A program made the position numbers and the translations under genes. 64,000 nt of DNA from an uncultured Lachnospiraceae bacterium (lineage in GTDB: Bacteria; Bacillota; Clostridia; Lachnospirales; Lachnospiraceae). The notes beneath the pieces were generated by a model. It searched no databases. It was given only the letters and a program-made list of their open reading frames with translations, and was not told the DNA's origin. Shown piece after piece: positions 21,232-49,216 of this stretch; positions within the stretch are counted from its first letter, which is position 1; every line of letters begins with the position of its first letter. Location: positions 62,001-126,000 of the forward strand of contig CANQSB010000004.1 in assembly GCA_947626435.1 (NCBI GenBank). Reading direction: 5' to 3'.

Positions 21232-22941
21232 GTGGCAAGGACGGTAGGGATAGGGATTCAGGATTTTGAGACGATTGTAACAAATGATTATTTTTATATA
21301 GATAAGACGCATTTTATAAAGGAATGGTGGGAGAGCGGCGACAGCGTGACGCTTATCACGCGCCCGCGCCGTTTCGGAAAGACGCTTACGATAAGTATGC
21401 TTGAAAAGTTTTTTTCGGTGAAGTATGCTGGCAGGGGGGATTTGTTTGAAAAGCTGTCCGTATGGCGGGAGGAGAAGTACCGCAAGTTGCAGGGGACATA
21501 TCCTGTGATAAGTTTGAGCTTTGCGAATATAAAGGAAACGGATTATCAGACAACTAGAGAGAAAATATGCCTGCTTTTGGAAAAGCTTTATTCGCAGTAT
21601 GAATTTTTGTTGGATGGTGACATTCTTACCGAGGGGGAAAAGAAATATTTTAAAAGCGTATCGCCTGATATGGACAATACTATAGCGACTATGGCGATTT
21701 ACCAGCTTTCGGATTTTTTGCATAGGTATTATGGAAAAAAAGTAATTGTGCTGCTTGATGAGTATGATACGCCTATGCAGGAGGCGTATGTCAGGGGATA
21801 TTGGGATGAGATGGCGGCGTTTACTAGAAGTTTGTTTAATTCAGCCTTTAAGACGAATCCATGGTTGGAGCGCGGCTTGATGACAGGTATAACGCGGGTT
21901 AGTAAAGAATCGATTTTTTCGGATTTGAACAATTTGAAGGTAGTCACGACGACTTCAAATGAATATGCGTCCTCATTTGGATTTACGCAGTCCGAGGTGT
22001 TTTTGGCTATGGACGAGTTTGGTTATGATAATAAGGATAAGGTAAAGGCATGGTATGACGGATTTAACTTCGGTAAGCTCAGCGACATTTATAATCCGTG
22101 GTCAATAATAAATTTTCTTGATACGGGCAAGGTGTCTGTATATTGGGCAAACACAAGCTCAAACAGCCTTATCAACAAGCTTATCCGCGAGGGTGGCTCG
22201 GACGTAAAGAAAAAATTTGAAGGTCTTCTGAATGGAGAGCCTGTCGTGAGCAATATTGATGAGCAGATTGTGTACAATCAGCTTGATGTAAGACCGAACG
22301 CGATATGGAGCCTGCTGCTTGCGAGCGGATATTTAAAGGTGCAGAGGCTAAAGACATATGACGATATAGACTGGCTGGGCGGGGCAAAGCCTGAGTATGA
22401 GCTGGTGCTGACGAATTTTGAAGTGCGCCTTATGTTTGAAGCGATGATTTTGGACTGGTTTGGCGTAGTCGAGTCGGATTACAATGATTTTGTCAAAGCG
22501 CTTCTGTCAGGCGACATAAAAGCAATGAATGAATACATGAACCGCGTATCGAGCGAGGTTTTCAGCTATTTTGACACAGGCAGGAGAAAGTCCGGCAAGG
22601 CTGAACCCGAGCGTTTTTACCATGGCTTTGTTTTGGGATTGTTGGTGGAGCTGAGGGGAAGATACCGCCTTACTTCAAACAGGGAGAGCGGTTTCGGCAG
22701 ATATGACGTAATGCTTGAACCTCTCAACAAGGATGACGACGCGATTATTTTGGAGTTTAAGGTGCGTGACACTGACGACGAGCAGACGCTTGCCGATACG
22801 GTAAACGCGGCATTAAAGCAGATAGATGAAAGGCAGTATTCGCAGACATTGATTGATAATGGCATAAGCATGGGGAAAATCAAAAAGTATGGTTTTGCAT
22901 TTGAGGGGAAAAAGGTACTAATCGGCGGAAGTGTAAAGTAA
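21232..22941 (+). CDS. AAA-ATPase-like protein with C-terminal PD-(D/E)XK nuclease-like domain
   Basis: The 569-residue protein matches the AAA-ATPase-like / PDDEXK_9 family that is multicopy in gut Clostridia and Bacteroidetes. The N-terminal half has a Walker A variant in TRPRRFGKTL and Walker B IVLLDEYDTPM. The C-terminal 120 residues have GFGRYDVML followed by AIILEFKVRD, a D...ExK nuclease-like pattern. The biochemical role is not established. It starts with GTG after AGGAGGGCAGGAAT. It stands alone after a terminator, consistent with a mobile or accessory gene. Confidence 0.82.
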   Translation: MARTVGIGIQDFETIVTNDYFYIDKTHFIKEWWESGDSVTLITRPRRFGKTLTISMLEKFFSVKYAGRGDLFEKLSVWREEKYRKLQGTYPVISLSFANIKETDYQTTREKICLLLEKLYSQYEFLLDGDILTEGEKKYFKSVSPDMDNTIATMAIYQLSDFLHRYYGKKVIVLLDEYDTPMQEAYVRGYWDEMAAFTRSLFNSAFKTNPWLERGLMTGITRVSKESIFSDLNNLKVVTTTSNEYASSFGFTQSEVFLAMDEFGYDNKDKVKAWYDGFNFGKLSDIYNPWSIINFLDTGKVSVYWANTSSNSLINKLIREGGSDVKKKFEGLLNGEPVVSNIDEQIVYNQLDVRPNAIWSLLLASGYLKVQRLKTYDDIDWLGGAKPEYELVLTNFEVRLMFEAMILDWFGVVESDYNDFVKALLSGDIKAMNEYMNRVSSEVFSYFDTGRRKSGKAEPERFYHGFVLGLLVELRGRYRLTSNRESGFGRYDVMLEPLNKDDDAIILEFKVRDTDDEQTLADTVNAALKQIDERQYSQTLIDNGISMGKIKKYGFAFEGKKVLIGGSVK

Positions 22942-38695: not shown

Positions 38696-38732
38696 AAGGC
38701 AGCTAATATACTGTCTATATTAGCTGCCTTTT
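38696..38732 (+). terminator. Terminator of the ZIP transporter gene
   Basis: A perfect 15-bp stem (38696-38710 with 38716-38730) with a 5-base loop, ending in CCTTTT. Confidence 0.88.
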
Positions 38733-38909
38733 GGGTGTCGAAGCGCTTTTTTGTATGTTAATGGGCAGGCGGCCTGTCTTTAGTTTTGTTTTAGGCGAGA
38801 AAAGTTTCGGATTCACCGCATATTGCCGCCGAATGCCAAAAGACGTCGGCAGATATGGCTATAGTACATGTGCGCCTGAAATGCAAGCGGTAAATATGTC
38901 GGTCAACGT

Positions 38910-38973
38910 TTATGCCAGATAGCATTTATGCCAGATAGAAGTTATGCCAGACAGAAGTCATGCCAACTGGCTG
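38910..38973 (+). repeat. Four tandem 16-bp repeats (TTATGCCAGATAGAAG-like)
   Basis: Units start at 38910, 38926, 38942 and 38958, exactly 16 bases apart. The first three share TTATGCCAGAYAG; the fourth keeps CATGCCA. The array ends 26 bases before the -35 box, the usual place for activator sites. Confidence 0.88.
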
Positions 38974-38999
38974 ACAGTCCAGAATGTTTAATCAGGTTA

Positions 39000-39027
39000 T
39001 TGACAGACCTCAAGAGTGTGTTATATT
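39000..39027 (+). promoter_or_regulatory. Promoter of the GH35 beta-galactosidase gene
   Basis: TTGACA (39000-39005), 16 bp and TATATT (39022-39027). The tandem repeats lie directly upstream. Confidence 0.75.
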
Positions 39028-39163
39028 TAATTATAGAAGCGGCAAGACAAGGGCGTACTGATGCTTCATTGTGAAGTGCGGTATGCCCTTGGATTATATT
39101 GAAGCCGAGAATGACGGCTCATCAGTATTGATAAGCTGCCTATGGGCGGCATGGGGGATTGCA

Positions 39164-40984
39164 ATGGGAAAATTTGAGATCAAGGATAATTTTTATTTGG
39201 ACGGAAAGCCGTTTAAGCTGATATCGGGAAGCATACATTATTTCAGGGTAGTGCCTGAATACTGGCGCGACCGTCTTGAAAAGCTTAAGGCGATGGGGGC
39301 AAACACCGTGGAAACATACATACCGTGGAATGCCCATGAATCCAAGAAGGGACAGTTTAACTTTGAGGGCAGGCTTGACCTTGTGCGATTTGTAAAGACG
39401 GCGCAGGAACTGGGGCTTTATGTGATACTCCGCCCGTCGCCCTATATATGCGCTGAGTGGGAGTTTGGCGGTCTTCCCGCGTGGCTGCTCGCGGAGGACA
39501 ATATGAGGCTGCGCGCCAATTATGAGCCGTTTTTAAAGCATATAAGGGACTACTATGACACGCTCTTGCCGATAATCACTCCGCTGCAGATTACAGAGGG
39601 CGGTCCCGTGATACTTATGCAGGTTGAAAACGAGTATGGTTATTACGGCGACGACGGAAAATATATGGAGACTATGCGTGACCTTATGCTTGAAAGGGGC
39701 GTAGAAGTTCCGCTCATTACATCTGACGGACCTTTTGAGGAGTCGCTTTCCTGCGGAGTGCTTGCGGGAGCCCACCCGACAGGCAATTTTGGCTCCCGCA
39801 CGAAGGAGCGCTTTAAGGTGCTTGAACCGTACGCAAAGGGCGGTCCGCTTATGTGCGCCGAGTTTTGGGTAGGCTGGTTTGACCACTGGGGAAACGGCGG
39901 GCATATGACGGGTAATTTGGAGCAGAGCACGCAGGATTTGGACGATATGCTTGATTTAGGTCATGTGAATATCTATATGTTTGAGGGCGGCACGAATTTT
40001 GGCTTTATGAACGGCTCAAATTATTACGACGAACTTACCCCTGATGTGACCTCATATGACTACGATGCTGTGCTTACGGAGGCGGGCGATTTTACAAAGA
40101 AATATGAAAATTACAGGAGGGTTATATCAAAATACGCCGATATTCCCAATGTCGAGTTTTCGACCAAGATTGTAAAGAAAGCATACGGAAGGCTTGAAGT
40201 AAAGGAAAAAGTCGGACTGTTCAATGTACTTGAGGACATTTCCACTCCAATCGAGGACACTTTCCCAATCTGCATGGAAAAGTGCGGGCAGAGTTACGGC
40301 TATATTTTGTACCGCTCAAAGCTTGAAAAAGAGAAAAACATTGAAAAAATCCGCCTGTGGGGAGCAAACGACAGGGCGAATATTTTTGTGGACAATGCAA
40401 GGGCAGTGACGCTTTACGACAGGGAGCTTACGGGCGAGTACGACGTAATATCAGGCACAGTGAAAAAAGCGCAGGATGCGAACGCCGCCGCGCCTGATGA
40501 TGAGCCAAAGCAGCAGAATGAGCCGATAACCTTCCCGCAAGGCGCGACGATCGATATTCTCATGGAAAATATGGGGCGCGTAAACTTCGGCCCTATGATG
40601 GAGAGCCAGAGAAAGGGCATCGCAGGCTGTGTGCAGATAAACGGGCATATGCATTACAACTGGACAATGTATCCGCTGGAGCTTGACAATATTGACAAGG
40701 TTGATTTTTCAAAAGGATATGACGAGGGGCTGCCCGCATTTTACCGCTTTGAGCTCGACGTGGATGAGCTGGGAGATACATTTCTGGAGCTTGCAGGCTG
40801 GGGGAAAGGCTGCGTATTTCTGAATGGGTTTAACCTCGGGCGCTATTGGGAGATAGGACCGCAGAAGCGTCTTTATATTCCCGCGCCGCTTTTAAACAAG
40901 GGCTTGAATGAAATAATAGTTTTTGAGACTGAGGGAAAATCAAGCGGAATAATCGAATTAAAAGATGAGCCTGATATAGGCTGA
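39164..40984 (+). CDS. Glycoside hydrolase family 35 beta-galactosidase
   Basis: The 606-residue enzyme has the GH35 TIM barrel in its N-terminal half, starting with SGSIHYFRVVPEYW. The acid/base glutamate is in ILMQVENEYGYYG and the nucleophile in LMCAEFWVGWFDHWG. C-terminal beta-sandwich domains include GWGKGCVFLNGFNLGRYW. GH35 removes terminal beta-galactose from glycans or plant galactans. No signal peptide is present, so it acts on imported oligosaccharides. The ATG at 39164 follows GGGGG with 6 bases spacing. It is convergent with a GH2 gene. Confidence 0.93.
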   Translation: MGKFEIKDNFYLDGKPFKLISGSIHYFRVVPEYWRDRLEKLKAMGANTVETYIPWNAHESKKGQFNFEGRLDLVRFVKTAQELGLYVILRPSPYICAEWEFGGLPAWLLAEDNMRLRANYEPFLKHIRDYYDTLLPIITPLQITEGGPVILMQVENEYGYYGDDGKYMETMRDLMLERGVEVPLITSDGPFEESLSCGVLAGAHPTGNFGSRTKERFKVLEPYAKGGPLMCAEFWVGWFDHWGNGGHMTGNLEQSTQDLDDMLDLGHVNIYMFEGGTNFGFMNGSNYYDELTPDVTSYDYDAVLTEAGDFTKKYENYRRVISKYADIPNVEFSTKIVKKAYGRLEVKEKVGLFNVLEDISTPIEDTFPICMEKCGQSYGYILYRSKLEKEKNIEKIRLWGANDRANIFVDNARAVTLYDRELTGEYDVISGTVKKAQDANAAAPDDEPKQQNEPITFPQGATIDILMENMGRVNFGPMMESQRKGIAGCVQINGHMHYNWTMYPLELDNIDKVDFSKGYDEGLPAFYRFELDVDELGDTFLELAGWGKGCVFLNGFNLGRYWEIGPQKRLYIPAPLLNKGLNEIIVFETEGKSSGIIELKDEPDIG

Positions 40985-40985
40985 A

Positions 40986-41039
40986 AAAAGGAGCTGCCTG
41001 CTAATCAATCAATGACGGTTTAGCAATGCGGCTCCTTTT
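40986..41039. terminator. Bidirectional terminator between GH35 and GH2 genes
   Basis: A 12-bp outer stem (AAAAGGAGCTGC / GCGGCTCCTTTT) with an inner TGCTA/TAGCA pairing. It starts within a few bases of both convergent stops. Confidence 0.85.
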
Positions 41040-41047
41040 AAGTGGTT

Positions 41048-43483
41048 TTATACGGTTAATGAAAGACAGGCAGGTTTTACCTGTTCGCCAGTAACCTTGA
41101 CAAGCATTTCGCGCGCGTTGTCGCCATGAAAGGCGTATATCATAAGCTGTCCGCGGTATGCTCTCCTATAGCTTGCGCTGTATTCGGTAATGTCGCTCAA
41201 ATCCCCGTTTTCCAAGCCTAAGAGAGTGCCGTTTTCAACAGAGGCGTTAAGCATAGTTGAGTCATTGTATACGCGTCTGCCGTTTTCGTCAAGCATGGTG
41301 ACTTCGATTTGATGAAGCCCTGATACCGCGCTGTCATTGCACAAATATTCTTTGAGGGATATCTGGCAGGCGCTCATAGTGGTGTAAAGCGAGTGGCTTA
41401 CGCCGCAAAATTCGCCTGTTCCCTGCGCTTTAAGCTCTCCTGATTTAAAATTCGTGACGGCGCATATGCAGTCAGCATCCTTTTCTTTGCTGAAAATTCC
41501 TAAGCTTTCGCCGTTTAAGGACAGCTCTATACTTTCAAGATTTGTATAGCATTTTACTAACACAGGCTCGTCTTTGCAGTAATTCCAATATTCGCTTGCC
41601 GAAGAAAATTCACATGATACGGCGTCGTCAAATACCTCTCCCCATGGAGTGATGCGACTTTCGTCGAGCCGTACGGTGGCAAGGTGTACCATTGGAGTAT
41701 CGGACCAAAAGCTCTGCCTGCGGAAATACCCTGTTTTTTCAAAGCCCGCAAGCGTCAGAAGTCCCGCGCCTGAACCGTGGACAGGCCAGCCGCGCGCCTC
41801 GCCCAGATAGTCGATTCCCGTCCAGAGAAATTGTCCCGATATATATTCATTATCAGTCACAGCACGCCATGCTTTATATGTATGTCCGTTTTCGCTGCCA
41901 AGGAAAGGCTTGCCTGGGAAACGCAGGTGGTGCTCCGCGTACAGGTGCTCCTTGTAATTAAATCCGACGACGTCAAGCGGGTCGATAAATCCAAGCTTGG
42001 CTGAAAGCTCTGGAAATGCGGCAGCCAGAGTGACAGGGCGCGTGATGTCAGCCGATTTTGCTATGTCGCAAAGCTGTTTTGAAAGCACGGCAAGGCGTTC
42101 GGCATTGGGACGCTTTGGATTATACATACGCTCGTTTTCTGGTTTTTGGGCGTCATTATTTCCTGTCATGCTGTCAAAGGACGGATGGCAGTAGGGATCG
42201 TTCGGATAGTCGATTTCGTTGCCTATGCTCCACAATATCACGCTCGGATGATTGCGGTCGCGAAGTATCATGTCTTCTAAGTCGCGCTTGTGCCAGACAG
42301 GAAAATTTGTATAATAGCCCTGATTTCTGGGCGGATAGACGTTATGACCCTGCCACCACTTATTTTTTGGAAGCTCCCACTCGTCAAAAGCCTCGTCCAT
42401 GACGAAAAAGCCAAGCTCGTCGCACAGGCTGTATAGCTCAGGCATATGTGGATTGTGGCTTGTGCGGATTGCATTGCAGCCCATCTCTTTGAGTTTTATA
42501 AGGCGCCGCCTCCAAACAGGCGCATACACCGCCGCTCCGAGGCACCCCGCATCATGATGAACGCACACGCCCTTTAGCTTGTAGGGAGTGTCGTTTAGGA
42601 AAAAGCCCTTGTCGGCATCAAAGCGAATGCTGCGCATGCCTACGCGCGTTGTGTTTGCACAGTATTCCTGACAGTATTGCGTATCACTTTCGCCTTTGTA
42701 TCTGATAAAGGTTTTGAGTGTGTAGAGCGTCGGATTTTCAGGAGACCAGAGCATAGGGTTGTCGATGGCGCCTGTGTTTTTCACACATACGCTCTTGTTT
42801 GGCGGTATAGTGACGTCTGAGGATGTCTGGCTTACGCATTTTTCGCTTGAATTACTGAAGAGTAAATTTGATACTGTGGCATTGCAGGGGGCATCTGTAT
42901 GGTTTGCAATCATGCTTTCGACAGTATATTCGAAGTGATCGGCGCATACGTTTTGAGTGTGGAAAAATATGCCGTTTACCTCTGGACATATCGGTTCGCA
43001 GATGGTAAGCGTGACCTTGCGTGTTATGCCTGAGCCTGTAAACCATCTGGAATCCGAAAGTTCTCGCCTGTCGACATATACGCTTATAATATTTTCAGAC
43101 TCAAAATTAAAGCAGTCTGTAATATCATAACTGAATGATATATAACCGTTCGGACGCTCTCCGAGATATACGGAGTTGCACCATACGCGGCTGTTTTTGT
43201 AGATGCCGTCAAAATTTATTGTGATCCGCCTGCCGCGCCAGCCGTCTTGCGGATCGATATGTATTCTGTACCAGCCTATGCCGCCCGCAAGATATCCCGT
43301 CCCGCTGGAGTAATCCTTTGAAAATGCAAGCGATACCGACCAGTCATGCGGCAGCCGAACCTCACCCCATGCACTGTCGTCATACCATGCCTGCCATGCA
43401 TCGGGTTCATCACCGAGGTTAAAGCGGCTTTTTTCGATATTAACAGTAAGCGTGTCAATAGTTGTATCCATAGCGCAAATCAT
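41048..43483 (-). CDS. Glycoside hydrolase family 2 protein (beta-galactosidase-like)
   Basis: The 811-residue enzyme has the GH2 order: an N-terminal sugar-binding jelly roll (LPHDWSVSLAFSKDY, GIGWYRIHI), an immunoglobulin-like domain and a TIM barrel. RTSHNPHMPELYSLCDELGF precedes the acid/base glutamate in ILWSIGNEIDYP, and the nucleophile is in LGSENGHTYKAW. A further Ig-like domain with GVSHSLYTT follows. GH2 of this type can be beta-galactosidase or another exo-glycosidase; galactosidase is the best guess. There is no signal peptide. Two starts are possible: 43483 (AAGGAA directly adjacent) or 43471 (MDTTIDTL, ribosome site rather distant). Confidence 0.88.
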   Translation of the reverse strand: MICAMDTTIDTLTVNIEKSRFNLGDEPDAWQAWYDDSAWGEVRLPHDWSVSLAFSKDYSSGTGYLAGGIGWYRIHIDPQDGWRGRRITINFDGIYKNSRVWCNSVYLGERPNGYISFSYDITDCFNFESENIISVYVDRRELSDSRWFTGSGITRKVTLTICEPICPEVNGIFFHTQNVCADHFEYTVESMIANHTDAPCNATVSNLLFSNSSEKCVSQTSSDVTIPPNKSVCVKNTGAIDNPMLWSPENPTLYTLKTFIRYKGESDTQYCQEYCANTTRVGMRSIRFDADKGFFLNDTPYKLKGVCVHHDAGCLGAAVYAPVWRRRLIKLKEMGCNAIRTSHNPHMPELYSLCDELGFFVMDEAFDEWELPKNKWWQGHNVYPPRNQGYYTNFPVWHKRDLEDMILRDRNHPSVILWSIGNEIDYPNDPYCHPSFDSMTGNNDAQKPENERMYNPKRPNAERLAVLSKQLCDIAKSADITRPVTLAAAFPELSAKLGFIDPLDVVGFNYKEHLYAEHHLRFPGKPFLGSENGHTYKAWRAVTDNEYISGQFLWTGIDYLGEARGWPVHGSGAGLLTLAGFEKTGYFRRQSFWSDTPMVHLATVRLDESRITPWGEVFDDAVSCEFSSASEYWNYCKDEPVLVKCYTNLESIELSLNGESLGIFSKEKDADCICAVTNFKSGELKAQGTGEFCGVSHSLYTTMSACQISLKEYLCNDSAVSGLHQIEVTMLDENGRRVYNDSTMLNASVENGTLLGLENGDLSDITEYSASYRRAYRGQLMIYAFHGDNAREMLVKVTGEQVKPACLSLTV

Positions 43484-43560
43484 TTCCTTGATATATTAAA
43501 TGCGGGCTGCGGCGTAAGTCGAGGCAAAAATCGAAGATAAAGCAGCCGCGCCTTGCATAT

Positions 43561-43601
43561 ATCATACCGAGTTTGGGCGCGGAATGCAAGCGTTTGGGCG
43601 C
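43561..43601 (-). promoter_or_regulatory. Promoter of the GH2 gene with 21-bp-spaced direct repeats
   Basis: On the minus strand TTGCAT (43589-43584), 17 bp and TATGAT (43566-43561). GTTTGGGCGC occurs at 43571-43580 in the spacer and again at 43592-43601 just upstream of the -35. The two copies are exactly 21 bases (two helical turns) apart on the same strand, typical for AraC-type binding. Confidence 0.65.
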
Positions 43602-43657
43602 CTTTATAAAGCATATTTCGGTAGCTTGGCGCAGAAAATTTTATTATTATTTGGTTA

Positions 43658-43686
43658 TTGTAAATAAGGAATTTCTCAAGTATACT
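43658..43686 (+). promoter_or_regulatory. Promoter toward the DUF4238 gene
   Basis: TTGTAA (43658-43663), 17 bp and TATACT (43681-43686). Confidence 0.65.
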
Positions 43687-43910
43687 ATAGTAGAAAAATA
43701 AAAATACCAGATAGTTTTTGTTATACTATTCAGAGTGATCGTTATGTAGACAGAGAAGAAAAAGGAAAAAATAGGCACGCTATGTTTTTTTAAATTGGAA
43801 AATATCAGGGGTCAATCCGCTAAAAGATTTACAGTGCGGTAGAGGATGCGGTCAGTGTACTTGCGGAGACTGTGGACTTGAATGAAAAAGGCTGTTATGA
43901 GGATGCGTTC

Positions 43911-45053
43911 ATGAATACACATTACATACCACGTCTTCTGTTGAAACACTTTGCAGAAGAAAATAAAGTCTGCGTGTACGATTCTGCCACAGCATCATAC
44001 ACACGCAAAAAAATAAAGAATACCTTCACCATGGAAGACGCCTTTGACGAAGAACTGGAAAACGCCTTTGCGACAAAGCTGGAGGGACCGTTTGGCGATT
44101 TGTTGAACCATAAGTTGCTGTCAGGTGAAAAAATCACAATCGACCGCAGAGAAAATCTGCTGATGAGAAAATTTATGATGATCAATGCATTAAGGTCGCC
44201 TCTGACAAACCATTCATGGGAGGAAATAGTAGAAATAACAAAAACACAGAATCATCCTTCAGTGCACATGGCGGAGTTTATGCGTCGTTTCAGTCCTGAG
44301 TTTCGGGAGCTGTTTAACAGCGTATATTCAAAGAATACATATATTTCCGATTTGAAAAAGGCTATGGAGATAGAATCACTAGAGGACATATCGGGAGCAA
44401 AGGAGGACTCTGGAATATCGATTAAATTAAGTTTTGCGGCAAAATATGCAATGGCGGCGACTGTTGCCTTTTGGGACTGCACTGATTCGGGACAAGAGTT
44501 TATTCTTCCAAGGCTTCAAGGGATATCAGAGATGGACAATAAAGGCATAGTACATAAAAGCATTGTCCTTGCGGACAGAAAGGAGGGGCTCGAAAAGGAA
44601 TGGCTGCCGGAAGATATGAAGGCTGAAATTATGAGTATGCTTTATGGCAGTACAATATTCAGCGATAATTACGGCGTTTATCCGCTGTCCCCCACCAGAG
44701 CGTTGGTATGCTTTTCGCCTTATTTCAAAGCATTTTTCCCGATGAAGGCCGCCAATTCGAGGATTACTTATCCGCCACTGCTTGACGGCAAACAGTTTGC
44801 TATGCATTTTTATAAGCCGATGAGGCTGGAGCTCTTTAAGCCCTGCACCAATAACAACAACAGCATATACCATTATTCCGTAAAACAGCTCACAGCGGCT
44901 GAAACGCAGGGAATCAACGCATTAATGATGAATGCGGAAACAGAGGAGTTCGTATTCCACGATTATGAAAAAATCAGAGGTTCCTTTAAGTATTACGACA
45001 ACGAAGCTGTATTTGCAGGCGGTAAAAAATATGACTTTAGGCATTTGGAATAA
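43911..45053 (+). CDS. DUF4238 domain-containing protein
   Basis: The 380-residue protein begins with MNTHYIPRLLLKHFAEENKV, the hallmark of DUF4238 (H-Y-[IV]-P at the very N-terminus). The family motif continues with VYDSATASYTRKKIKNT and a central FMMINALRSP helix. The family has no established biochemical role; members are scattered in accessory regions. The ATG at 43911 follows TGAGGATGCGTTC and places the family motif at residue 1. The neighbours are an XRE regulator and an Hsp90-like ATPase/DUF3883 protein. Together they look like an accessory, possibly defensive, module. No membrane segment or signal peptide is seen. Confidence 0.8.
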   Translation: MNTHYIPRLLLKHFAEENKVCVYDSATASYTRKKIKNTFTMEDAFDEELENAFATKLEGPFGDLLNHKLLSGEKITIDRRENLLMRKFMMINALRSPLTNHSWEEIVEITKTQNHPSVHMAEFMRRFSPEFRELFNSVYSKNTYISDLKKAMEIESLEDISGAKEDSGISIKLSFAAKYAMAATVAFWDCTDSGQEFILPRLQGISEMDNKGIVHKSIVLADRKEGLEKEWLPEDMKAEIMSMLYGSTIFSDNYGVYPLSPTRALVCFSPYFKAFFPMKAANSRITYPPLLDGKQFAMHFYKPMRLELFKPCTNNNNSIYHYSVKQLTAAETQGINALMMNAETEEFVFHDYEKIRGSFKYYDNEAVFAGGKKYDFRHLE

Positions 45054-45088
45054 TCCGAATGTCAAAGTCATATTTTTTTGCCGTAATT

Positions 45089-45301
45089 TTATGAAGAAAA
45101 AAGTTCTAGGATGCTGACATCAAGCGCATCAGCAATTTTTGCTATCGTGTTGAGTGAAATATTCTCGCAATGTCCGTTGCGGTAACGGTTTACCTGGCGG
45201 GGCGATTTTTCGATAGCGTCAGCAAGCTTTTCAGTGCTGATGTTACGCTCCTTGCACAATCTGCATAAATTATCGGCAAAGCTGTAATGGTATTGATACA
45301 T
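45089..45301 (-). CDS. Small XRE-family helix-turn-helix regulator
   Basis: The 70-residue protein is a single helix-turn-helix domain (ISTEKLADAIEKSPRQVNRYRNG...NTIAKIADALDVSILELF). It starts after AAGGAGGTGGAATT on the minus strand. It is encoded opposite to the DUF4238 and Hsp90-like genes and has its own promoter. A dyad in the shared upstream region (45431-45453) is a candidate operator. Small divergent XRE proteins often repress accessory or defence operons, which is the suggested role here. Confidence 0.85.
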   Translation of the reverse strand: MYQYHYSFADNLCRLCKERNISTEKLADAIEKSPRQVNRYRNGHCENISLNTIAKIADALDVSILELFSS

Positions 45302-45368
45302 AATTCCACCTCCTTCGCCAAGTCGCCAAGGTTCCAAAGATTTCCTTGTGTATCTTTACGTATCTATT

Positions 45369-45397
45369 ATTATAACAGAAACGCCATCAAATGTCAT
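45369..45397 (-). promoter_or_regulatory. Promoter of the small XRE gene
   Basis: On the minus strand ATGACA (45397-45392), 17 bp and TATAAT (45374-45369), 68 bases before the ATG. Confidence 0.7.
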
Positions 45398-45430
45398 TCC
45401 CAAAATGTCGAAAATAAATACAATTATATA

Positions 45431-45453
45431 TTGAGAGCGTTTATCGCTTTCAA
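45431..45453. promoter_or_regulatory. Candidate operator dyad before the Hsp90-like gene
   Basis: TTGAGAGCG, 5 bases, CGCTTTCAA is a 9-bp dyad with one mismatch. It lies between the divergent XRE and Hsp90-like genes, adjoining a TATATT that could be a -10. Confidence 0.5.
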
Positions 45454-45520
45454 CAGGCTGTATTGTAAAAAGCAAATACAGCTTGAAATGAATTACAGGA
45501 AATTATTTTAAGGAGGAATT

Positions 45521-48500
45521 ATGTCATACAAGGAACTGATTGAACAAAGCATACAGGGAGTATACGAAAAAGGAATCGCAACAAAGATATTGCAGCACAT
45601 GGGGAAGATACGCAATGCCTCGGATATTACGCAGGCAAGAAGATGGCCTATGGAACTATTGCAGAATGCAGGAGATCTGGCTTATGAGGACAGGCAGGTA
45701 AGAGTACGGGTTCGCTTGGAAAGGGACCGGTTGGTATTCGAGCATACGGGAATGCCGTTTCGGGTAAGGGACATATTGTCTATTGTAAATCAGGTTTCAT
45801 CAAAAAATCCGGGGGAAACGGTAGGTCAGTTTGGAACAGGCTTTACTACCACCTACCAGCTTAGTGAAAAAGTGGAAATTCGTTCTGTCTTAAAGGAGGA
45901 AGGGCTTCCATATAAGCGTTTTTCTGTCATATTGGATCGCAGCGGCAAGACGCATGAGGAGTTGCACGAGGCTATTGAAAAAAACATGCGAGAGCTTAGC
46001 ATAGCCGATGAAGGTGAAGAGCTGCGCGATTATAATAAGGATGATTTCAATACGGCATTTGTGTATCATTTGGAGAGCAGTCACAGCAGGGAAATTGCGC
46101 TTACAGGTATGAGGGATTTGCGTGATACGATATTGTACATAATGCTTTTCTCGCAGTCAATTAAAAGTGTGGAGCTTGAATTTGCAGAGGGGTTGCTGCA
46201 GGAGGAAGGGCGGCATTTTGTGTATGAGCGCGGCAGTTCGGCAATCGTATCAGGCGGACGCATAACTGAAACAGTTATTATGGAATCCGGTAAACAGCAT
46301 ATTCTGAGGCATATGTCGGACAATGGAATTACGATTGCGGTGGAGTATGATGCCCAAAAGGGATACTTAAAGCTTTCAGAGCGCACTCCCAGGCTCTTTA
46401 TTGATTTTCCGCTAATCGGCGCGGAGGAATTTCCGTTCCCTATGGTGATAAATTCAAGGCGCTTGAATCCAAATGAGCCACGCAGCGGAATTTCTCTTGT
46501 CGACTTGGAGCAGTCAGAGGACTCACGAAAAAATAAGGTGGTAATGGATGAAGCAGTCAGTTTGTACGGAGTATTTTTGAAAGAGGCAGTGGGAATGGGG
46601 CTGTCGGGAATTGAAAATGTGCTTTATATCCCGAAATATCAGGACAATAAAGAATGGTCACGCTTATGGGTGGAAGCACACCTGTATAACAAAATATACG
46701 AGCACATAGCTGATGAAAAAATTTTTGACACTTCTGACGGCATGCAGAGCCTAAACTGCCAGAGCCTTAGTATTTTGCAGGCGGCAACCCCAGAAGAACA
46801 GCAGGGAATGATTAAAATATGCGCTGAGATTGACGGGCTGCTGGTGCCGGAGGGAGAGGTTGACTGGTATTCCGCGCTTGAAAATTACAGTGAGGCTTGC
46901 AGCAGGAGCATTTCGCTGGAAGGGCTTCTGGGAAAAGCCAGCGAATGGAGCGTGCTGGGCAAAATCAAATGTTCTCGGATAGAATGGTGTCAGAAGCTGT
47001 ATGAGCTTGGCATTTCCAATGAAGCAACAGCGACATTGATACGCACAAGCGCTGTGGCAATACTGCCAAACCAATGTGAGAATGACAGGCAGCTCTATAG
47101 AGTGTCAGAGCTGTATCGTGACAACGGGATTCCGGAGGTTTTGAAGGATGTGTCGGAAGAACTGGATAAGCTGAAAGCGTCGAGAGGCATGTGCGGTTCG
47201 GCGGCAAATGCGGTAGAAATAAGGAAAAGACTTCTTCACAGTGATATAAAGGCGGAAAATCTAACGGAGCTGCATGAATATCCGCTGTCAACGCTGATAG
47301 AGTATATTGTACAGCGCAGCAGGCGTGGATTTCCGGTGGAGCAATTTTCATATTATGGAAATACTTATATGCAAGCGTGGCGTAATGCGTGGACAAAGCT
47401 GCTGTGCTGCGGACCGGATAAACCCTTGTATGATATATTCAGGCAAGTTTACGCGGAGGAACTGCCGGATTATAAAAAGCTGGAGGATGAGAGAATATCG
47501 GATTCTTTGTGGAAAAATTCTTATATAGGGCTGTTAGATAACATTTTTGGCGATTTGGAAAAAGCTGGATGTATTGACTCGCTCAAAGCGGAATTGGATG
47601 CTGACTGGCTGAGCAGATTATTTAATGCGGCGCTTGGGTATTATGAAGCTTATAGTTTGAGCGTCAAAAAAATTTTTCCCAACCAGAAAGGAAAGTTTTG
47701 TACGCTTTTGGAGCTTTATGAGGATAAAATCGAGGCGAAGGAACTGAAAAAAATCGTATGCTGTTTCAGCCAGCGTGAGAAAGACTGTAATATATTGGAA
47801 GAGCTTTTATATGAACAGATTAAGCTGGATGGCGGCTGGAATCCACGCGTTATGGCGAATAAGGAGGTGACCTCACGCATATCAAGGGCGGTTAGCAGGC
47901 TTTTGTCGGAAGGCAACCTCAACGATGCGCCGGAGGAGCTTCAGGAGGCATGTACGCTTCTGCTCACATGGCTTCAGGAGCATCCCGGTGAGGCGAAGGA
48001 ATATTTCCCTGAATATTCTACTGAGGAGGAGCAGGCAAAGCTGGTTACATCAAAGGCTGTCGTCAATCTGCAGAAAAAATCGAGAGGGCTTGATAAGCTT
48101 ATGGAGATTGCGGGGACAGAGGATGTGGACGAACTTATTGAAATAATGGAAATGGGAGTGGGGGCAGCAGGAAAGACGGACAAAGACGAATCCGCAGGCG
48201 GCTATGATGAGGCTTCGGGAGTATTTTTCGGAAATGAAATTGGTTTAATGCCTCAAGCTGAGCGTGAAGACATACTTAGGGAAATAGGCAGAGGAGGAGA
48301 GCTTTATGTCATGGAACAAGTCAAGAAGCTGTTTGAAGAGCAGGGGTGGAGCGTTACAAGTGAAAGTCAGGGACTCATCAAATTGAAGAAGGACAGCCAA
48401 GCAGCGCTTTCGACGGAGGACGCTGCCGACAGGAATGACGGAGCGGACTGGATTGGCATTGCGGATGACACATACCAAATGGCAGAGCTTTACCAGCCGG

Positions 48501-48823
48501 ATACGGAAGAATATCATCAGGAAGGGTGGGATATCCGGATAAGGCTTTGGCACTCTGACGAAGAGCAGCCAAAAGAATTTTATATAGAGGTTAAGACGCA
48601 TACGACAGACAGTGAGGTGCATCGCGTACTTAGGCTGTCTGATAGCCAGATGCGTTTGGCTGCTTCTTACGGTGGAAGCTGTTTTGCTGTGATTATGGTA
48701 GACTATAACTGGAAAGCTCATGTGGCGATTGGAATGCGTTGGTTTCCAAATATATTGGAACAGATTTCCAAAGGCAGAATCCGCAGCGCACAGGGAAAGT
48801 ACTGGTTTTTTGTGATAGCATAA
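45521..48823 (+). CDS. Sacsin-like Hsp90-type ATPase fused to a DUF3883 domain
   Basis: The 1100-residue protein starts with a Bergerat-fold ATPase of the sacsin/Hsp90 type. ARRWPMELLQNAGDLA carries the E...N..D of motif I, VFEHTGMPF replaces the DxGxG region, and VGQFGTGFTTTYQLS is the glycine-rich lid. A long central region (about residues 330-930) has no recognisable domain. The C-terminus (about 935-1100) is a DUF3883 domain, often compared with Mrr-like nucleases: IGRGGELYVMEQVKKLFEEQ, a WDIRI region and FYIEVKTH. The start follows TAAGGAGGAATT. Large ATPase-nuclease-like proteins of this kind occur in defence islands; with DUF4238 and XRE neighbours this is a candidate anti-phage gene, unproven. 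Confidence 0.8.
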   Translation: MSYKELIEQSIQGVYEKGIATKILQHMGKIRNASDITQARRWPMELLQNAGDLAYEDRQVRVRVRLERDRLVFEHTGMPFRVRDILSIVNQVSSKNPGETVGQFGTGFTTTYQLSEKVEIRSVLKEEGLPYKRFSVILDRSGKTHEELHEAIEKNMRELSIADEGEELRDYNKDDFNTAFVYHLESSHSREIALTGMRDLRDTILYIMLFSQSIKSVELEFAEGLLQEEGRHFVYERGSSAIVSGGRITETVIMESGKQHILRHMSDNGITIAVEYDAQKGYLKLSERTPRLFIDFPLIGAEEFPFPMVINSRRLNPNEPRSGISLVDLEQSEDSRKNKVVMDEAVSLYGVFLKEAVGMGLSGIENVLYIPKYQDNKEWSRLWVEAHLYNKIYEHIADEKIFDTSDGMQSLNCQSLSILQAATPEEQQGMIKICAEIDGLLVPEGEVDWYSALENYSEACSRSISLEGLLGKASEWSVLGKIKCSRIEWCQKLYELGISNEATATLIRTSAVAILPNQCENDRQLYRVSELYRDNGIPEVLKDVSEELDKLKASRGMCGSAANAVEIRKRLLHSDIKAENLTELHEYPLSTLIEYIVQRSRRGFPVEQFSYYGNTYMQAWRNAWTKLLCCGPDKPLYDIFRQVYAEELPDYKKLEDERISDSLWKNSYIGLLDNIFGDLEKAGCIDSLKAELDADWLSRLFNAALGYYEAYSLSVKKIFPNQKGKFCTLLELYEDKIEAKELKKIVCCFSQREKDCNILEELLYEQIKLDGGWNPRVMANKEVTSRISRAVSRLLSEGNLNDAPEELQEACTLLLTWLQEHPGEAKEYFPEYSTEEEQAKLVTSKAVVNLQKKSRGLDKLMEIAGTEDVDELIEIMEMGVGAAGKTDKDESAGGYDEASGVFFGNEIGLMPQAEREDILREIGRGGELYVMEQVKKLFEEQGWSVTSESQGLIKLKKDSQAALSTEDAADRNDGADWIGIADDTYQMAELYQPDTEEYHQEGWDIRIRLWHSDEEQPKEFYIEVKTHTTDSEVHRVLRLSDSQMRLAASYGGSCFAVIMVDYNWKAHVAIGMRWFPNILEQISKGRIRSAQGKYWFFVIA

Positions 48824-48849
48824 AACAAATATTTTCTATTCCCGAATAA

Positions 48850-48878
48850 TTGACAGCCCTGAATATAAAAAGTATAAT
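48850..48878 (+). promoter_or_regulatory. Perfect promoter of the small Cys/His protein gene
   Basis: TTGACA (48850-48855), 17 bp and TATAAT (48873-48878), 58 bases before the ATG. It is one of the strongest promoters in the window. Confidence 0.9.
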
Positions 48879-48936
48879 TTCTCATATAGAGAACATAATA
48901 AATGTGTGTTGCTGAATACTGAAGGGAGGAATTTGT

Positions 48937-49188
48937 ATGTCATTTTATGGCGGATTAGAGGATATGGATGAGCTTGAAGAAAAAAAGCAGAAAATGCAGG
49001 AAAAGGAAATAGACGACATCATCAAAATGCTCGACAGCAAAACCACAGGCGGCGTAAGCCGTATAAAGGTCGAGGTTTCCGAGCAGCAGGCGCAAGGCAC
49101 AGTCAGCGCCAAGTACCACCATGGCCGTTGCGATGTGGGCAGTCCTTGGGCTACAGGCGAAGTGCGTAATTTTGGCGGCTGCGATTGA
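48937..49188 (+). CDS. Small orphan protein with Cys/His-rich C-terminus (paralogue 1)
   Basis: I do not recognise this 83-residue protein. Residues 1-23 are charged (DELEEKKQKMQEKE). Residues 24-45 (EIDDIIKMLDSKTTGG...) form a probable helix shared with the 70-residue protein at 56259-56471 (10 of 22 identical). The C-terminus holds KYHHGRCDVGSPW and ends NFGGCD, giving two cysteines and two histidines. It could be a metal-binding protein or a precursor peptide with leader and core, but no modification enzyme is in the window. It starts after GGGAGG, has its own perfect promoter and a strong terminator, and faces a heterodimeric ABC exporter. Confidence 0.8.
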   Translation: MSFYGGLEDMDELEEKKQKMQEKEIDDIIKMLDSKTTGGVSRIKVEVSEQQAQGTVSAKYHHGRCDVGSPWATGEVRNFGGCD

Positions 49189-49216
49189 CCTATGCATTAA
49201 ATGTGGTACATATATA

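Follow-up and report, generated by a model that had tools for sequence, protein, structure and literature searches.

Organization of the three-gene locus

The DNA analysed here (the window) is a 64-kb stretch, C4:62001-126000; the draft genome to which it belongs comprises 3.7 Mb in 98 contigs. It contains three adjacent genes with intact reading frames: one for a DUF4238 protein of 380 amino acids (43911..45053, + strand), one for a small XRE-type repressor (45089..45301, - strand) and one for a giant protein of 1100 amino acids (45521..48823, + strand), the last preceded by a good ribosome-binding site. The repressor gene is convergent to the DUF4238 gene and divergent to that of the giant. 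A preliminary description of this DNA had proposed the same three genes. A PADLOC profile matched the giant, and Pfam and NCBIfam profiles matched the products above the respective cut-offs (PF14022, 67.6 bits against 27, for the DUF4238 protein; HTH_26, 50.5 bits against 22, for the divergent regulator beside the giant).

The giant: ATPase core and nuclease-type end

The giant joins a TmtA-like (Tiamat-type) ATPase to a NOV_C nuclease-type domain. TmtA, for which PADLOC gives the short name only, we take to be the Tiamat protein. The PADLOC TmtA model PDLC03967 matches in three stretches (376 bits, E 1e-112), best over residues 1-550; this is a hit at the level of the profile, as distinct from a PADLOC call of the Tiamat system. 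A sacsin-type ATPase is also recognized by NCBIfam (P_loop_sacsin, 69.9 bits, cut-off 50). The Bergerat motifs noted earlier are present as ELLQNAGD (residues 45-52) and GQFGTGF (residues 102-108). Residues 16-403 (45566..46729, + strand) fold as a GHKL ATPase with its transducer, and this N-terminal region matches the folds of Hsp90 and sacsin; the same residues dominate the PDB fold listing, which barely probes the rest of the protein. The roughly 600 residues originally left unassigned are thereby reduced to about 500, and the middle of the giant is poorly modelled.

At the other end (48233..48820, + strand) the Pfam scan places NOV_C (PF13020; DUF3883) at residues 991-1051 with 24.1 bits against a cut-off of 22.1, a match that is weak alone but is supported by relatives (27.3 bits in L043); the DUF3883 assignment of the preliminary description holds. 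The PD-(D/E)xK set E927, D1004, E1023 and K1025 is kept in all five NOV-type giants aligned. DUF3883 is termed a REase domain in an earlier paper (PMC3710099). From the motifs and the weak Pfam match we infer that the giant ends in a putative PD-(D/E)xK-type nuclease; a sequence comparison of this end with the PDB gave chance-level matches only. Phages gave no match for the giant, and the plasmid scan returned two related giants, both cyanobacterial. An initial genome scan with the window giant alone found no relative.

The DUF4238 protein

The window's DUF4238 protein is 55-56% identical to those of two similar loci described below (L103 and L104) and about 20% identical to two other DUF4238 proteins of the family. 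Its structure model is poor (pLDDT 42.6), and no match was found in the PDB by sequence. Phages yielded a single match, at 25.6% identity, and plasmids none. In the family sample PF14022 was matched in 19 of 299 genomes; the window's own DUF4238 subtype (E 1e-20) occurred in one of 397 family genomes, its own, and by this measure the trio is rare. No TmtA-type ATPase lay near the other DUF4238 genes in any of the 15 stretches examined. As a separate observation, made by eye, DUF4238 genes sit inside type I RM operons at L119:2588-11679 (two genes), L123:4937-9681 and L129:4930-11841.

The XRE regulator and its promoter

The likely start of the XRE gene is the ATG at 45301, with a ribosome-binding site upstream, giving a 70-amino acid HTH_26 protein that is 65-68% identical to its L103 and L104 counterparts. 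A predicted promoter block for this gene (45365..45402, - strand, edges approximate) contains -35/-10-like hexamers with an 11/12 consensus match; it could be aligned, and is kept, in the window, L103 and L104. The stretch upstream of the giant is without similarity in L103 and L104. The operator-like dyad of the preliminary description finds no support: upstream of the giant, the strongest dyad (45454-45485) is at chance level, 16 of 200 dinucleotide shuffles reaching it. At L107 a divergent 537-amino acid protein with a weak HTH_26 match occupies the place of the XRE gene.

Genomic setting

Comparison with genome G711 reveals chromosomal backbone at 95-96% identity up to window position 38716 and at 86% identity over 48925-49189, with other genes between. 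In G710 conservation starts at 48850, which is 26 bases after the stop codon of the giant and coincides with a perfect sigma-70-type hexamer pair. The right edge (48850..49188, + strand; 84% identity to G710) is thus backbone outside the system, carrying a promoter and an 83-amino acid ORF. This ORF (48937-49188), tried as a further member of the system, was rejected since it is backbone beside a DinG-type helicase in both G710 and G711. On the left, sugar-hydrolase genes (39071-43483; GH35, GH2) share the variable interval 38717-48849, so the left edge of the interval is not that of the trio, and the interval may be a wider variable site. The G+C content is 42% for the DUF4238 gene, 46% for the giant and 48-50% for the genes to the left; between the stretches compared, no flanking repeats longer than 9 nt were found. 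In the window itself, genes for metabolism and transport adjoin the trio, which is neither for nor strongly against a defence role. About 22 kb from the trio, at 21232-22941, lies a gene for an AAA-ATPase_like plus PDDEXK_9 protein.

Conservation and distribution of the trio

A contig scan with two peptide queries, the window and L043 giants, which is no census, returned five further NOV-type giants (L103-L107; L043 and L105, being the same record, count as one locus). At L103 and L104, both in Eubacterium MAGs, the DUF4238 gene (+), the XRE gene (-) and the giant (+) have the order and orientation seen in the window, and the other flanking genes differ from those of the window. The window giant shares 39.5-39.8% identity with these two, which show 70% identity between themselves and come from related genomes; the trio therefore represents two lineages rather than three independent cases. 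On this recurrence the trio is a real unit. The trio copy is the sole PF14022 match in the genomes of L103 and L104. The giant stands without the trio at L105, L106 (where it is broken in frame) and L107, that is, in three of the six loci with a fused nuclease, and PF14022 is unmatched in the genomes of both L106 and L107. Since L107 nests with L103 and L104 in a tree of the shared core, DUF4238 is either dispensable or was gained twice.

Counting its own genome, the giant had matches in 12 of 299 family-sample genomes, 3 of 391 class-sample genomes and 6 of 38 genomes of the genus, some of these matches being distant TmtA types. Among the 299 family genomes the 12 with the giant and the 19 with PF14022 overlap in the source genome only. 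The conclusion that the trio genes do not co-occur, drawn at one stage from this overlap, was overturned by L103 and L104. Co-occurrence elsewhere, which the preliminary description had named as a check, is therefore partial: it holds in two related MAGs, against the three giants without DUF4238 and the single overlap in the family sample. At L140:295-4337 (G817), a locus left out of the counts since it holds a remnant only, a short piece of a NOV-type end is followed or preceded directly by an intact gene for an ATPase that, by eye, resembles the neighbour of the L103 trio; it looks like a deletion footprint and fits loss of the cassette.

Relationship to known systems

The preliminary description knew of no named system with this trio. 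For the parts this does not stand: the giant belongs to the PADLOC TmtA (Tiamat) family, and a lone DUF4238 protein has been published as an anti-phage system that conferred strong resistance to T7 (Rousset et al. 2022, PMC9122126). The likeness to the latter is at the level of the domain; the published protein acts alone, whereas the window protein is linked to an XRE regulator and a TmtA-type ATPase.

Tiamat reportedly consists of one gene, whose product carries an Hsp90-like ATPase. The window giant shares its sacsin/Hsp90-type ATPase, as judged by the PDLC03967 match, but differs in its fused NOV_C end and in the linked DUF4238 and XRE genes; this likeness runs through the PADLOC models only, which are diverse for TmtA. 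A 2026 review lists the mechanism of Tiamat as unknown (PMC12926258). From sacsin and plant NO VEIN the giant is set apart as a bacterial protein with one ATPase unit, encoded by a patchy accessory gene, and the Pfam scan matched neither HEPN nor DnaJ in it. Unlike the GHKL clamps MORC, GyrB and Topo VI-B, it had no match to a topoisomerase cleavage or CW domain in the same scan.

The neighbours of the giant's relatives include type I RM, AbiLi with RloB, Gabija GajA, a CBASS-type cyclase (SMODS, AGS_C) and a Mokosh-like helicase; L104 has a second large TmtA-type protein nearby. The resemblance to anti-phage systems suggested at the outset is thus upheld by homology and by the surroundings of the relatives, but not by the window's own neighbours.

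Proposed function and alternatives

We give about an even chance to the trio being an anti-phage cassette of Tiamat kin, in which a clamp-like sensor with a fused nuclease works under XRE control with DUF4238 as companion; the defence role is predicted from homology and context. The giant would act as an ATP-gated GHKL clamp whose dimer closes as in Hsp90, GyrB and MORC. Its variable middle may sense infection, and closure might then activate the fused NOV_C PD-(D/E)xK domain, which would cut phage or cell nucleic acid, the latter case amounting to abortive infection. The XRE protein would repress its own conserved promoter, and probably that of the giant, holding the system low, and DUF4238 could form a second arm as companion effector or sensor. 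This cassette reading draws on the TmtA match, the GHKL and transducer fold, the catalytic set kept in five of five giants and the recurrence of the trio in L103 and L104, as well as on the kept XRE promoter, the sole PF14022 copy in the genomes with the trio and the anti-T7 activity of a lone DUF4238 protein (PMC9122126). The patchy occurrence of the locus, its position in an interval variable in G711 and the defence genes beside its relatives argue in the same direction. Against it count the three of six NOV-type giants that lack DUF4238, the restriction of the trio to two lineages, the metabolic neighbours, the weak Pfam match behind the nuclease and the poor models of DUF4238 and of the giant's middle.

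A serious rival, which we regard as possible though clearly less probable than the cassette, is that two systems lie side by side, joined only by linkage in a mobile defence cassette: DUF4238 would work by itself, and so would the Tiamat-like ATPase-nuclease, which would have XRE as its own regulator. That DUF4238 is effective alone (PMC9122126) agrees with such independence, as do the NOV-type giants without it and the 0/15 other DUF4238 loci with a TmtA-type ATPase nearby. Mere linkage accords less well with an order and orientation kept in two lineages whose giants are 40% identical and whose other flanks differ, or with a DUF4238 subtype seen only beside the giant.

Two further readings take the locus away from phage defence as such. 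A toxin-antitoxin-like or stress module, with DUF4238 or the giant as an XRE-repressed toxin stabilising a mobile element, would explain the small XRE gene that adjoins, and is convergent to, the DUF4238 gene, and would be in keeping with the HicB-like antitoxin gene after the trio in L104; it is improbable, given that XRE is divergent from the giant, that no partner-type toxin fold was found and that both large genes fall in defence-listed families. Very improbable indeed is an Hsp90-type chaperone that serves housekeeping or stress functions and takes no part in defence. It would suit the N-terminal fold, which is matched by Hsp90 and sacsin, but the patchy distribution (12 of 299 family and 6 of 38 genus genomes, the source genome included) contradicts near-universal presence, G711 has other genes in the same interval, the giant bears a nuclease-type end and defence genes adjoin its relatives.

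For work on Tiamat, the comparison offers several testable points of entry: a nuclease-type end whose key residues can be mutated, a regulator whose promoter is conserved, the linkage to DUF4238, and related loci with TIR effectors recognisable in their partner genes.

Giants with another C-terminus and AlbA_2 partners

C-terminal profiles divide the giants with zero overlap into a NOV type at six loci (the window and L103-L107) and another type at 15 (14 plus L139), for L100, L101 and L106 on the C-terminal pieces only; the distant TmtA types of L051-L053, L056 and L102 fall outside both groups. The window giant is unmatched by the profile of the other C-terminus (RPSD...IPL). The two types have the ATPase and middle region in common at 21-28% identity to the window giant, and differ in that their C-termini are unrelated in the profile comparison and that the effector of the other type would lie in a separate gene.

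At 13 of these 15 loci the next downstream gene starts with an AlbA_2/Schlafen domain, a count made without L044 and L045, whose giants are cut by contig ends. Ten were assigned by Pfam or a Pfam-built alignment (L046 and L098 below the Pfam cut-off) and L108, L109 and L139 by a custom profile only. In 12 loci the two genes overlap by at most 10 bases or lie at most 24 bases apart; in L139 they are separated by 20 bases. No AlbA_2 partner was found at the cyanobacterial plasmid loci L110 and L111 and, with the partner profile, none beside the NOV-type giants (0/6 loci, window ORFs included). For 12 of 14 against none of six, Fisher's test gives 0.0007, a value that overstates independence; L047, L099 and L108 are close kin.

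The partners end variously. TIR_2 was found in L047, L048, L049, L099 and L101 and a CAP12/PCTIR-type TIR in L050 and L100; PD-(D/E)xK-like ends in L046 and L098 and a HEPN-like end in L054 were seen by eye only, with no library support. Four partners were scanned against PADLOC, three of them without a match and one with weak TIR matches. In the literature searched, from which subscription papers were mostly absent, no description of an AlbA_2/Schlafen-TIR plus Hsp90/sacsin system was recognised.

The five NOV-type rows group as a single clade (100/100) in a tree built on the shared core, and the other-C-terminus group lies on one side of a branch supported at only 75/91, so the NOV type may have arisen inside the other group. 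The change of C-terminus was probably one event. New here are the single clade of fused-nuclease giants and the AlbA_2 gene adjoining giants of the other type; the defence families to which the two large genes belong (TmtA, DUF4238) already had names.

Tentatively, and with somewhat less than even confidence, we suggest that the TmtA core is an effector-agnostic immune sensor, joined in one clade to NOV_C in cis with DUF4238 and XRE and in others signalling to an AlbA_2 adaptor whose end can be exchanged between TIR, nuclease and HEPN; under the name "Tiamat" there would be several modular two- and three-gene immune systems. If so, one Hsp90-like sensor would be wired to lethal responses of differing chemistry, and software that scores TmtA by itself would overlook the partners.

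Several individual loci deserve mention. Two-gene cassettes of ATPase and AlbA_2-TIR protein are found at L047:5902-9994, L048:14172-18766, L050:2348-5642 and L099:5232-9808, and GAF-like ends also occur on the AlbA_2 partners of L048, L099 and L101. The giants of L100 and L101 are split and their pieces were viewed apart; that of L101 (7555-11564) is interrupted by an insertion that is transposable-element-like by eye. L108 and L109 derive from a viral collection, and at L109:7644-11309 the TmtA-type ATPase and its AlbA_2 partner follow genes that appear, by eye, to be phage-structural. Lastly, the distant sacsin/TmtA-type ATPases at L051:5734-13190 and L053:5655-12806 adjoin an SNF2 helicase of about 1190 amino acids, an arrangement that in L051 has a Swt1-like HEPN end and is a different two-gene layout from the AlbA_2 cassettes.
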